A stretch of DNA of 64,000 nucleotides. Source: an uncultured Acidobacteriia bacterium. Lineage in GTDB: Bacteria; Acidobacteriota; Terriglobia; Bryobacterales; Bryobacteraceae. Below are positions 924-50,497 of the stretch, piece after piece. The notes beneath the pieces were generated by a model. That model was not told the DNA's origin, did not search any database, and saw nothing but the letters and a program-made list of their open reading frames with translations. The stretch is taken from the NCBI GenBank assembly GCA_903923395.1, contig CAIXXM010000051.1, forward strand, positions 62,001 to 126,000, written 5' to 3'. The stretch's first letter is position 1; every line of letters begins with the position of its first letter. The translations under genes were made by a program, and so were the position numbers.

Positions 924-997
924 TGGCTCCCCGACATGGATTCGAACCACGATTCACGCCTCCAAAGGGCGCTGTCCTACCGTTAGACGATCGGGGA
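924..997 (-). tRNA. tRNA-Gln (anticodon TTG)
   Basis: Read on the minus strand this folds into a full cloverleaf of 74 nt including an encoded CCA. The acceptor stem is TCCCCGA paired with TCGGGGA. The D arm holds GTC/GAC around TAACGGTAG. The anticodon stem is GCGCC/GGCGT with loop CTTTGGA, giving anticodon TTG. The T arm is CGTGG/CCATG around TTCGAAT. The D-arm and loop sequence closely resembles bacterial tRNA-Gln. It is divergent from the selenocysteine tRNA, 57 bp away. Confidence 0.93.
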
Positions 998-1054: not shown

Positions 1055-1149
1055 GGAAGCCAGTCTTGGCCGGTGCTGGGTCCGGGCTTCAAACCCGGCG
1101 GGCGTCACTGAGTGTCGCTGGTGGGTTCGACTCCCACTGGCTTCCGCCA
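1055..1149 (+). tRNA. selC: tRNA-SeC (anticodon TCA), selenocysteine tRNA
   Basis: This is a 95-nt tRNA, the same length as Escherichia coli selC. The acceptor stem has 8 bp (GGAAGCCA with TGGCTTCC) followed by G and an encoded CCA. The T arm is GTGGG/CCCAC with loop TTCGACT. The anticodon stem CCGGG/CCCGG encloses CTTCAAA, so the anticodon is TCA, which reads UGA. The D stem can form 6 bp (CTTGGC/GCTGGG with wobble pairs), and a long variable arm forms around 1101-1117. The 8+5 acceptor/T stack, long D stem and TCA anticodon are diagnostic for bacterial tRNA-Sec. No selA, selB or selD is visible in the window. The J-domain gene starts 21 nt downstream. Confidence 0.95.
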
Positions 1150-41644: not shown

Positions 41645-42150
41645 TCTCCGCTTTCCGTTCCCGCAAGGGCAGTGCTGTGATTGAAGGCCCTGCCGCTGCT
41701 CTGATTATTGTGGTTCTGATGGCCGGCATGGTCGAGGTGGCGAAGATCGGCATCACTTACTACAGCCTGAAGAAGACCATGTTCACTATCGCCCGCTATG
41801 TGGCGACGCAACAGGGCGTAAACTTTTGTGATCCGGCTGACCCCACGGTCACTGCGGCGATCAATCTTGGCATGACGGGAACCACCGATAACTCCGCACC
41901 GGTGATTATTCCGAATTTAACGCCGGATATGTTCGCGATTACCATTGAACGCGTTGACCCAAGTGCTTTTGCTCTGACTCCCTGTGATTGCAGCATCACC
42001 GGCTGCGATATTTCGCAGGGCGGCGGCTTCCCGGATTATGTCGTTGTTACCATGCCCAACGGCTATACTTTCTCGCCTAAAATCCCCTTCACCACAGTGG
42101 AACCGTTTCCGCTGAAACCAATCGTGAAGATTCCGTTTGGGGGCTCTTAA
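41641..42150 (+). CDS. TadE-like pseudopilin
   Basis: A 169-residue protein with the TadE pattern at its N-terminus: RSRKGSAVIEGPAAALIIVVLMAGMVEVAK, i.e. a Gly followed by a Glu at +5 and a hydrophobic helix. The exposed domain has four cysteines including CDC (in TPCDCSITGCD). In other Tad systems TadE-type proteins are processed by TadV. Its ATG overlaps the preceding stop by 4 nt and its stop is 1 nt before the next start. Confidence 0.85.
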   Translation: MISAFRSRKGSAVIEGPAAALIIVVLMAGMVEVAKIGITYYSLKKTMFTIARYVATQQGVNFCDPADPTVTAAINLGMTGTTDNSAPVIIPNLTPDMFAITIERVDPSAFALTPCDCSITGCDISQGGGFPDYVVVTMPNGYTFSPKIPFTTVEPFPLKPIVKIPFGGS

Positions 42151-42151
42151 C

Positions 42152-42664
42152 ATGCCCAGCAGGAATCGTTCTTCGCGCGCCGGCCAGACCATTGTGGAAT
42201 TCCCGCTGCTTTATGTCGGCATCCTGCTGCCGCTGACATTCGGCATCGTTTATGCAGCGCAAATGTACTGGGTCTGGAACAGCATGGTGGAGTTCACGCG
42301 CCAGGGTGCCAGGTATGCCGCCACCCACTGCTGGCAGACAGACACCAGCAATGTGATTACGTATATGCAGGGCAATGTGCCCCTGACCGTGGATATCGCC
42401 CAGTTCCAGAATGGACAGGCGACCATCAACGTGAACTACTATCAGCGCGACCCCTCATCTGGCGTATTGAATCCTTTTACCTGCGATGGTGATTGCACCT
42501 CCAACTGCGTGCCGGATACCGTAACCATCACCATCAGCGGTTACCAATTCAGTCATTTTGTGGGCTTTCTCAAGCTCCCCCCGGTTGTCATGCCGGAATT
42601 TCTGACTACCATGCCCATTGAGAGCAATGGGTGCGACCCCGAACTGAACGTTTGCAATCCCTGA
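42152..42664 (+). CDS. tadE: TadE-like pseudopilin
   Basis: A 170-residue protein. The N-terminus SSRAGQTIVEFPLLYVGILLPLTFGIVYAAQ is the canonical TadE domain (Gly, then Glu at +5, Phe at +6, then a TM helix), followed by RQGARYAATHCW. The remaining domain has four cysteines including CDGDC. ATG 42152 is used; an upstream TTG at 42137 is in frame but overlaps the previous gene. It is followed by the ATPase TadZ after 16 nt. Confidence 0.9.
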   Translation: MPSRNRSSRAGQTIVEFPLLYVGILLPLTFGIVYAAQMYWVWNSMVEFTRQGARYAATHCWQTDTSNVITYMQGNVPLTVDIAQFQNGQATINVNYYQRDPSSGVLNPFTCDGDCTSNCVPDTVTITISGYQFSHFVGFLKLPPVVMPEFLTTMPIESNGCDPELNVCNP

Positions 42665-47643: not shown

Positions 47644-47904
47644 GTGGATCACTCAGTCAATCTAGCCGAGCTGCAGCAGGTTCTCGGCAAATACGTCGAT
47701 CAATATCAACTGCTGCCCGCTGCCGGACCTCTTGCCGCCGCCAGTCTCGCACGGCTTGTGCTGGGAAAGAACAAGGCCATTAGTATCGCGGTCAAAGGAA
47801 GTGCCGCCTGGTTTGCCGTGAAAGAGATTTCCGGCCCGGCATTGCACTTGATGAACGACCAGTTTGGTTATCTCCAAAATATCTTTGGGATGTTTCGGCA
47901 CTAA
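47644..47904 (+). CDS. Hypothetical protein (86 aa)
   Basis: An 86-residue protein starting at GTG, with a helical N-terminus (AELQQVLGKYVDQYQ) and two moderately hydrophobic segments (about 24-42 and 45-62). No family recognised. There is no clear Shine-Dalgarno sequence. It is followed after one base by another 86-residue gene, so the two are likely coupled. Confidence 0.5.
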   Translation: MDHSVNLAELQQVLGKYVDQYQLLPAAGPLAAASLARLVLGKNKAISIAVKGSAAWFAVKEISGPALHLMNDQFGYLQNIFGMFRH

Positions 47905-47905
47905 T

Positions 47906-48166
47906 ATGGCACGCTTCGTAAAAGTTCATCACCGCATGATCAATATAGATCAAATTGCCTACGTTGACTTCCTCGATTCCGGGCGCGCCATGATTTTCAT
48001 GAGCGGACTTTCCCTGGAGAAGCAGAACATCCCCGTCGAGCCCGAAGAAGCCCGCCGCCTGCTGCACTTCATGGAAGGGGAACGGGCCGATGTTGCTCTG
48101 CCCGCGCCGGGAACACCTGCGCTGCCGCCCCGGACCTTCGTCGCACCACCGCTTCGCAGTTATTGA
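47906..48166 (+). CDS. Hypothetical protein (86 aa)
   Basis: An 86-residue protein with a compact beta-rich core of about 55 residues (FVKVHHRMINIDQIAYVDFLDSG, then RAMIFMSGLSLEKQNIPVEPEEARRLL) and a Pro/Ala-rich tail. The pattern, strands ending in an EPEEA helix start, is reminiscent of small single-domain proteins but no family can be named. It starts one base after the stop of the preceding gene and overlaps the end of the convergent ABC-exporter gene by 7 nt. Confidence 0.6.
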   Translation: MARFVKVHHRMINIDQIAYVDFLDSGRAMIFMSGLSLEKQNIPVEPEEARRLLHFMEGERADVALPAPGTPALPPRTFVAPPLRSY

Positions 48167-49944
48167 GAAGCGATCCCGGCTTCCATCTCGTCTTCCAGCA
48201 TCTGGCGGGAGACCAGTCCGCTGTAGTAGCCGCCCATCCCGCTGAGCTCGTCGTGGGTTCCGGTTTCGACCACCTTCCCATGTTCGAGGACCACGATCTG
48301 GTCCGCATGCCGGACCGTCGAAACGCGATGGGAAATCAAAATGACCGTGCGCCCGGCGAAGACCTTCGCGAGGCCCGTCAGGATGCGGTCTTCCGTGAGG
48401 GTATCCACGCTCGCCAGGGCATCATCCAGAATCAATACAGGTGCCTGGCGAATCACCGCACGGGCAATGGCTGTGCGCTGCTTCTGCCCGCCCGATAACG
48501 TAATCCCCCGTTCTCCAACAATAGTCTCGTAGCCTGCTGGAAAATCAGCGATGTCACCCGCCAAGCCCGCCGTTTCGGCAGCTTCCCGGATCGCGGCTTC
48601 CGAAGCGTTGTCGCGGCCAAACGACACGTTTTCGCCGAGGGTCGCACTGAACAGGAAGCTTTCCTGCGGAACGAAGCCAATCGCCTGGCGCAGAACAGCC
48701 GGATCATACTCGCGCACGTCAATGCCATCCATCAACACACGGCCCGCGGTGACATCGAGTAGCCGGGGAATCAAGCCGGCGAGTGTCGACTTGCCAGAGC
48801 CCGTATGTCCCACGATCGCGATGGTTTGTCCCGCCGGAATGTCGAAGGTGACATCGCACAGGGCGTAAGTGCTCCCAAACTTCACGGCCACATTTTCGAA
48901 CCGTATATTCCCGCGGATTTCTACCGGTGCCTTTGGTTCCGGCGGGGCGGCAATCGAAGGCTTCTGGTGCAGCACCTCCACAATCCTGCCCAGTGAAGCG
49001 GTGCCGCGCTGGATCAAGTTCACCACCCAACCCAGTGCGATCATGGGCCACACCAGCATCCCCATGTAGGTGTTGAACATGACGAACTCACCCAGGGACA
49101 GCTTGTGTTGCATGACCTGATACCCGCCCGCCCACAGGACCGCGAGGAAGGTCAGTCCGATCAACAGTTCGAGCAGGGGTTCGAAGATGCCCTGCAGTTT
49201 CACGAGCCGCAGGTTCTGCCGGATGTACTCCCGGTTCAAGCTCTCAAACTTCGCGATCTCTGCCTCTTCCTGTGCGAACGCACGAACGATACGGACCCCC
49301 GCGAGATTCTCCTGCACCCGGCTGCTGATATCGCTGAACATGCCCTGGATCTGCTCAAAACGCGAGTGGATTCGCTGGCCAAAATAGATCACCGCGAAAC
49401 TGACCAGCGGGGCAGGGATGAGCGCAAGCGTTGTGAGACGCCAGTCGATTCCCATCATGATGGAAACCGCGAACAGAGTGGTGAGCGTTGTTTCGGAGAG
49501 ATACATCACGCCCGGCCCCAGCATCATCCGCACGGCGTTCAAATCATTGGTCGCGCGCGCCATGATGTCACCGGTGCGCTGGCCCGCGAAGTACTCTGGC
49601 GGCAGTTGCACCAGGTTTCCGAAGAGATCGTTCCTCAGGTCATATTCAATGTCCCGCGAAACCCCGACCAGCACGAGCCGTGTGAAGTATTGGAAAATCC
49701 CCTTCACCACGCAAACACCCAACAGCAGCAAGGCCAACAGCGCGATGGAGGACCCGGGTTCGCCGCGCGTCAGGGCATTCACACCATTGCGCAGCACCAG
49801 GGGAGCACAAACTCCGGCACCATTCTTGCAGATCAGGCAAACGAAGCCCGTCAGGAACTCGCGCCTGTAGCGTTTCGCGTAGGGCAGAAGGATGCGGATC
49901 GACTGGCGGAGTGTAAGACCCGATTCAGACTGACTACCGCTCAT
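48160..49944 (-). CDS. MsbA-like ABC exporter (fused permease and ATPase)
   Basis: A 594-residue half-transporter. Six TM helices (about 25-310) are followed by a nucleotide-binding domain (about 345-580) with Walker A GHTGSGKSTL, Q-loop FVPQESFLF, signature LSGGQKQR, Walker B LILDDALASVD and switch His in ISHRVST. It probably acts as a homodimer exporting lipids or drugs. ATG 49944 is used; the frame extends to 49977 within the next gene. It overlaps the upstream PH-like gene by 11 nt. Confidence 0.94.
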   Translation of the reverse strand: MSGSQSESGLTLRQSIRILLPYAKRYRREFLTGFVCLICKNGAGVCAPLVLRNGVNALTRGEPGSSIALLALLLLGVCVVKGIFQYFTRLVLVGVSRDIEYDLRNDLFGNLVQLPPEYFAGQRTGDIMARATNDLNAVRMMLGPGVMYLSETTLTTLFAVSIMMGIDWRLTTLALIPAPLVSFAVIYFGQRIHSRFEQIQGMFSDISSRVQENLAGVRIVRAFAQEEAEIAKFESLNREYIRQNLRLVKLQGIFEPLLELLIGLTFLAVLWAGGYQVMQHKLSLGEFVMFNTYMGMLVWPMIALGWVVNLIQRGTASLGRIVEVLHQKPSIAAPPEPKAPVEIRGNIRFENVAVKFGSTYALCDVTFDIPAGQTIAIVGHTGSGKSTLAGLIPRLLDVTAGRVLMDGIDVREYDPAVLRQAIGFVPQESFLFSATLGENVSFGRDNASEAAIREAAETAGLAGDIADFPAGYETIVGERGITLSGGQKQRTAIARAVIRQAPVLILDDALASVDTLTEDRILTGLAKVFAGRTVILISHRVSTVRHADQIVVLEHGKVVETGTHDELSGMGGYYSGLVSRQMLEDEMEAGIASQ

Positions 49945-50497
49945 CGCTTCCCGAGTTGCGGGGGTCGATATTCCCAACCGTTTTCAGCAGGAAGTAGAGT
50001 CGTTCCACTTCTTCTTCATCTTCCGGCCGCAGCAGACGGTAGCGGGGCGGTGCCATCTTCTCGGCTTCGGCGGCGTTGATGATTTCGCCCCAATACTGCC
50101 GGTGGGGAATGCCATCAATGGAGGCGTCGCGCGAGTACTGGCGAATGGTGCGCAACAGGTGCTTGCAGCAATCCACTTCGCCGGGGTAGACAATCGTCAC
50201 CACTTCGTCGTCATACAGCGTGAGTTTCACGATCAGGGGAGAGATCCAGCCTGTGCGGTCCACGCGGCGGATGTCAGACCAGGGGATGACCCGCTTGCCG
50301 ATTTCGAGACAGCTTCCGGTGACTTGGATGGCAGGGCGGAAGGCCATCACCAGCAGCAGGGCTCCGGTAAGGACGAAAAGCGCGGACGGGATGAACGCGG
50401 GGTGCCATCTCCAGCCAAGCCAGCCGGCGAAAGCGGCAAGTCCGAGGGCCACGACTCCAAATGAAATGTAATGGCGTGCGGACACGTAGCGGCTCAT
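49934..50497 (-). CDS. PH-like-domain membrane protein
   Basis: A 187-residue protein with two TM helices (about 10-30 and 34-53) and a soluble domain with the strand pattern IQVTGSCLEIGKRVIPWSDIRRVDRTG and VVTIVYPGEVD, similar to the bacterial PH-like domains that follow a TM hairpin. A charged C-terminal tail with DEEEVERLY follows. No function is known. It overlaps the exporter start. Confidence 0.65.
   Translation of the reverse strand: MSRYVSARHYISFGVVALGLAAFAGWLGWRWHPAFIPSALFVLTGALLLVMAFRPAIQVTGSCLEIGKRVIPWSDIRRVDRTGWISPLIVKLTLYDDEVVTIVYPGEVDCCKHLLRTIRQYSRDASIDGIPHRQYWGEIINAAEAEKMAPPRYRLLRPEDEEEVERLYFLLKTVGNIDPRNSGSDER

Follow-up and report, generated by a model that had tools for sequence, protein, structure and literature searches.

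Bacterial tRNAs for selenocysteine (Sec), as represented by the Rfam model RF01852, are 95 nt long and combine an 8/5 fold with a 6-bp D stem, a 4-nt D loop, a long variable arm, the anticodon UCA, a G discriminator and an encoded CCA; the bacterial 8/5 form is described in the part of PMC5330540 available to us. The Sec-decoding trait of bacteria comprises this tRNA gene, selC, together with selA, selB and selD. For SelD itself, conversions of Sec to Cys and SECIS remnants below Cys codons are reported in the accessible sections of PMC1794560, and fusions of an oxidoreductase with SelD that carry Cys are already known (PMC4561486, in excerpt). All of the tRNA features listed above are shared, without any noteworthy difference, by a gene at positions 1055-1149 of the window, by which we mean the whole 64-kb stretch of DNA analysed here (positions 62001-126000 of contig 51 in a genome of 6,152,153 bases and 169 contigs that is 98.46% complete). 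Judging from sequence comparisons, we regard it as almost certain that this gene is selC of a Sec-decoding acidobacterium in which both the machinery and the UGA-containing genes are present. The finding is correct but ordinary, since the host also carries the Sec machinery and several Sec proteins, and no new mechanism is implied.

Table 1. The selC gene, its structural parts and its two neighbours (positions in the window; paired cells refer to the alignment with relatives)
Feature	Positions	Strand	Description
tRNA-Gln (TTG)	924..997	-	divergent from selC; ARAGORN, Rfam
selC, tRNA-Sec gene	1055..1149	+	95 nt including encoded CCA; ARAGORN, Rfam, covariation
selC acceptor stem, 5' side	1055..1062	+	8 bp, partner 1138-1145; 99.5% of cells paired (25 distinct sequences)
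selC D arm	1065..1080	+	6-bp stem 1065-1070/1075-1080, 4-nt loop CGGU; 100% of cells paired, both-sided change in 5 of 6 pairs (25 distinct sequences)
selC anticodon arm	1082..1098	+	5-bp stem, loop CUUCAAA 1087-1093, anticodon UCA 1089-1091; 92.8% of cells paired (25 distinct sequences)
selC variable arm	1099..1120	+	22 nt, 7 bp with one U.U mismatch; 89.7% of cells paired
selC T arm	1121..1137	+	5-bp stem; 100% of cells paired
selC 3' end	1138..1149	+	acceptor 3' side 1138-1145, discriminator G 1146, CCA 1147-1149
DnaJ-domain protein gene, 351 aa	1171..2226	+	downstream of selC; PF00226 60.6 bits

The original prediction had placed a selC gene here from the letters of the DNA, and two programs agree with it: ARAGORN calls a tRNA-Sec with anticodon tca on the forward strand at exactly these coordinates, and RF01852 matches 1055-1145 with 76.6 bits (E 5.5e-14 in 64 kb; gathering score 47) over its full length (model positions 1-91 of 91), so that the covariance model returns a tRNA-Sec and neither a tRNA-Ser nor a pseudogene. 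As in bacterial tRNA-Sec generally, the 8-bp acceptor and 5-bp T stems add up to 13 bp and stand beside a UCA anticodon, a 6-bp D stem with a 4-nt loop and a long variable arm, and all 31 pairs form in the window's copy. An alignment of 30 sequences (the window and 29 relatives' loci; 25 distinct rows scored) has standard pairs in 96.4% of the 774 cells of the cloverleaf, compared with 33.7-46.2% in the slid-partner controls. Moreover, 20 of the 31 pairs are altered on both sides, and the five measures applied were reached by none of 500 shuffles. Folded alone by free energy, the selC strand forms a rod and not a cloverleaf (z -2.26; 7 of 200 shuffles equally good), which leaves the covariance model and the comparison with relatives to carry the case for selC. 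Among the 233 loci compared, an exact copy is found only at the host genome's own locus (L001).

At E<=0.001, RF01852 matches 13 places in the host genome, of which eight, all but the five weaker ones, were scanned. Only selC was called as tRNA-Sec among these eight; the seven others are tRNA-Ser, Trp or Leu, and selC is apparently present in one copy. Two of the host's tRNA-Ser genes reach 51.3 bits, which is above the gathering score. The claim that the structural features of this gene occur in tRNA-Sec only thus stands for the 8/5 fold, the 6-bp D stem and TCA taken together, a combination that is diagnostic, and fails for the long variable arm alone, given the tRNA-Ser hits.

Both neighbours of selC (Table 1) recur in only 2 of 29 relatives' loci each, the tRNA-Gln in L041 and L049 (within <=1.5 kb per side) and a similar DnaJ-domain protein in L049 and L038, and for this reason we claim no functional link with selC for either of them. 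A search for ybbB/selU (TIGR03167) in the host genome returned one fragment of 23.6 bits only (cut-off 219.75; the controls gave matches in 7 of 14 genomes, one of them above the cut-off), and since the full gene was not found there, selenouridine formation is probably no second use of the selenium donor. The tRNA-Gln was also considered as a substrate for selenouridine and rejected, as ybbB was not found and adjacency with selC is seen in just 2 of the 29 loci; on present evidence, this tRNA gene lies outside the Sec system.

The remaining genes of the trait are located on three other contigs and all score above their curated cut-offs, which bears out the expectation that selA, selB and selD would be found elsewhere in the genome: selA (C45; 507.6 bits, cut-off 267.9; 435 aa), selB (C54; 344 bits, cut-off 242.25; 615 aa) and selD (C67; 364.5 bits, cut-off 125; one internal TGA). 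SelA and SelB are full length, and NCBIfam scans of Sec-pathway proteins are concordant with the three calls. The host thus possesses all four genes of the bacterial trait, spread over four contigs (C45, C54, C51 and C67) without a visible cluster. Following the pathway outlined in the accessible part of PMC13188914, seryl-tRNA synthetase would load serine onto the selC tRNA, SelA and selenophosphate from SelD would turn the seryl-tRNA into selenocysteyl-tRNA, and SelB with GTP would deliver the latter to a UGA with a SECIS hairpin after it. This route would supply SelD, formate dehydrogenase-N alpha and two proteins with an AhpC-TSA domain at the least.

SECIS-like UGA codons, proposed as a further check, were sought in chosen families across the host genome, and four genes were found with an in-frame UGA at the catalytic position, i.e. 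those for SelD, formate dehydrogenase-N alpha (FdhA), a peroxiredoxin (Prx) and a Prx-like protein. TIGR00476 has five matches, one of them with TGA; this is SelD, which reads HVKAAGUASKLSP and whose U aligns to a Cys of 3u0o, which we take to be E. coli SelD. The AhpC-TSA domain (PF00578) has 20 matches, two with TGA, namely the peroxiredoxin (AFTGGUTKEM) and the Prx-like protein (DWUPFCKAQ). Neither of these two reaches the cut-off of any NCBIfam family among its matches, and both hence carry no subfamily assignment. For the molybdopterin domain (PF00384) there are five matches, of which two share a frame and one carries a TGA; FdhA reads ARTUHGPSV and reaches 1254.2 bits with TIGR01553 (cut-off 814.2). 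Neither PF02627 (three matches in the host genome, none with a stop) nor the UGSC family NF041046 (no match in the host genome, the controls being equally silent) added a gene. The search covered these five families, and there may be further selenoproteins in the host genome. The motifs UxxK, UHxP, TxxU and UxxC of known families, as given in Table 1 of PMC13188914 (available in part), fit the host UGA genes. SelD and FdhA are complete only when the UGA is read through; the standard code truncates both, and annotation of the host genome must read UGA as Sec at certain sites.

Downstream of each of the four UGAs lies a SECIS-like hairpin with 6 or 7 pairs in its stem and 5 or 3 nt in its loop, the stem starting at nt 13-17 after the UGA. 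The energy of these hairpins was equalled or beaten by 6 (SelD), 1 (Prx), 2 (Prx-like) and 8 (FdhA) of 60 shuffles each and is therefore weak evidence when taken alone. For SelD, support for a SECIS comes from comparing Sec rows with Cys rows; for FdhA, Prx and the Prx-like protein it comes from single-sequence folds only.

Within the 64-kb window, two runs of a codon-usage read-through scan found no convincing recoded UGA, in agreement with the earlier reading of the window's genes; the scan recovers three of the four known positives (SelD is missed) and gives two further candidates in the same loci. There were nine candidates in one run and ten in the other, nine being common to both, and they were judged by eye from their position relative to longer ORFs, not by homology. 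Eight are opposite longer ORFs (4052, 4202, 13401, 16278, 21870, 35696, 45812 and 51506), candidate 42662 is the end of the ORF 42137-42664 with the next gene directly after it, and candidate 48164 is the end of the ORF 47864-48166, its continuation lying opposite the ORF 48160-49977. The same scan gave four candidates in the stretches L023-L026, one of which, L026:5252, was rejected because it marks the end of an ORF resembling hydroxyisobutyrate dehydrogenase.

A tRNA-Sec match at E<=1e-10 was obtained in 48 of 61 genomes, with the host counted. A repeat search at E<=0.001 in 12 of the 13 match-less genomes (all but G039) yielded 88 matches; none of the 30 that were examined with ARAGORN is a tRNA with a TCA anticodon, 29 being tRNA-Ser, Leu or Gly and one (L117) receiving no call. 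L117 starts inside a selC gene severed by the contig start in G003, and some of the absences are thus assembly effects. Five genomes combine a TGA-bearing SelD with the lack of a full tRNA-Sec (G003, G011, G024, G028 and G035), and in the last four of these we consider an assembly gap the likeliest cause of the missing tRNA. One of them, G028, has an assembly of 50 contigs at 96% completeness. A tRNA-Sec with no SelD at E<=1e-40 was seen in G021, G027, G029 and G058. Two genomes, G001 and G012, have neither selC nor SelD matches, for which reason the Sec trait may be truly lost in some relatives. Further, two tRNA-Sec matches per genome were recorded in G009, G056 and G060, those of G060 sharing a contig with about 3.6 kb between them; G056 has 7% contamination.

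This patchy distribution bears on the notion that the window's selC is a decayed relic of a lost trait, which we hold to be very improbable. It agrees with the 6 of 19 genomes of the genus (host included) that show no tRNA-Sec match at E<=1e-10, G003 with its cut contig among them, and with the empty G001 and G012, but in the host all 31 pairs of the tRNA form, SelA and SelB are of full length, and two proteins depend on reading through UGA for their completeness. It is barely conceivable that we are dealing with an unusual tRNA-Ser, or with a suppressor of UGA, that merely resembles tRNA-Sec, as the two tRNA-Ser genes above the gathering score might hint, for the gene has 76.6 bits, the 8/5 fold, the 6-bp D stem and TCA, is kept in relatives, and shares its genome with selA, selB, selD and recoded UGA genes. 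With 1055-1149 read as selC, a well-supported Sec-decoding genome, acidobacterial by the similarity of its SelD, is added to those known.

Near relatives with Sec or Cys in SelD reveal how the SECIS hairpin is retained or lost by need. Across the Acidobacteriota loci compared (L018, L056-L084, L147-L149 and L154-L233), SelD has Sec in some and Cys in others. Our first set comprised 37 loci, host copy included, and 26 Sec and 7 Cys rows (33 in all) entered the comparison; L150, L151 and L152, in which the site was unreadable, were omitted, as was L153 because it is an oxidoreductase-SelD fusion. All six pairs of the hairpin are preserved in 24 of the 26 Sec rows but in none of the 7 Cys rows, with 96.7% of 150 cells paired in the former and 64.3% of 42 in the latter. 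Covariation among the Sec rows is modest: two pairs are altered on both sides, a value equalled by 15 of 500 shuffles and also when the partners are slid by -1 or -2. The number of further pair types was attained in every shuffle, whereas no shuffle attained the paired percentage or the covariation score.

A second set came from a scan of named genomes with a SelD alignment headed by the host SelD, and consisted of the best 80 of 571 relatives, 77 of which were read (L182, L204 and L229 being left out). Among these best 80, 76 bear names of Acidobacteriota lineages, many of them Bryobacterales, and four those of Proteobacteria (L175, L183, L188 and L230), from which we infer that the host is an acidobacterium near Bryobacterales. 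All six pairs are found in 61 of the 62 Sec rows. Fifteen rows were read as Cys, including L194, which was misread at the wrong place; L219 has six hairpin pairs, L211 and L230 have five, and the other Cys rows one to four. Seven of the 77 rows reproduce 48-nt pieces already present in the first set, and duplicates occur among the rows as well, so that the two sets are not independent. The loss of the hairpin in Cys rows fits a SECIS function, since recoding by SelB is not needed there. In L211 and L219, Cys-SelD rows with Ala at position -2, a hairpin outliving its UGA after a recent change from Sec to Cys is likely.

The SelD tree was built without the first six residues, among which is the Sec/Cys site itself. 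On the best tree the Sec/Cys label changes six times, at least four of them on starred branches. The labels cluster no better than shuffled ones (190 of 500 shuffles were as low for Sec and 215 for Cys), and G008 has its Cys row placed with members of other families, apart from its own genus. Not all label changes need therefore be switches in place, and some of them may be gains of foreign SelD genes. All seven genomes with Cys-SelD in the first set (G002, G008, G010, G016, G020, G026 and G032) have a tRNA-Sec match.

The residue at -2, two positions upstream of the Sec/Cys site, mostly differs along with the label. In the first set, for which the pattern used allowed only Ala or Gly, all 26 Sec rows have Ala there and all 7 Cys rows have Gly. 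In the second set, read with an unrestricted pattern, Ala is present in every one of the 62 Sec rows; of the 15 Cys rows, 12 have Gly, two have Ala and the last is the misread L194. A universal rule was rejected, as Cys occurs with Ala in 3u0o, L211, L219 and the fusion L153. Four independent Sec/Cys pairs agree on the residue, a number that cannot reach 0.05. Since Cys-SelD usually has Gly in place of Ala at -2, both residues may need to change jointly, and it is conceivable, if somewhat doubtful, that SelD of Acidobacteriota has undergone repeated Sec/Cys change with selC kept and the -2 residue obliged to follow. We found no earlier mention of the Ala/Gly partner in the portions of the literature at hand, and repeated conversion of SelD from Sec to Cys has already been reported (PMC1794560, in part).

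The fusion L153, from G050, carries Cys with Ala at -2 and scores 321.7 bits with TIGR00476 and 359.2 bits with TIGR04369, the latter below the cut-off of 700. It is the one locus read from 16 genomes of family f3 (among G038-G056) in which the best SelD match lies in an open frame of 749-832 aa without TGA, and tRNA-Sec matches are present.
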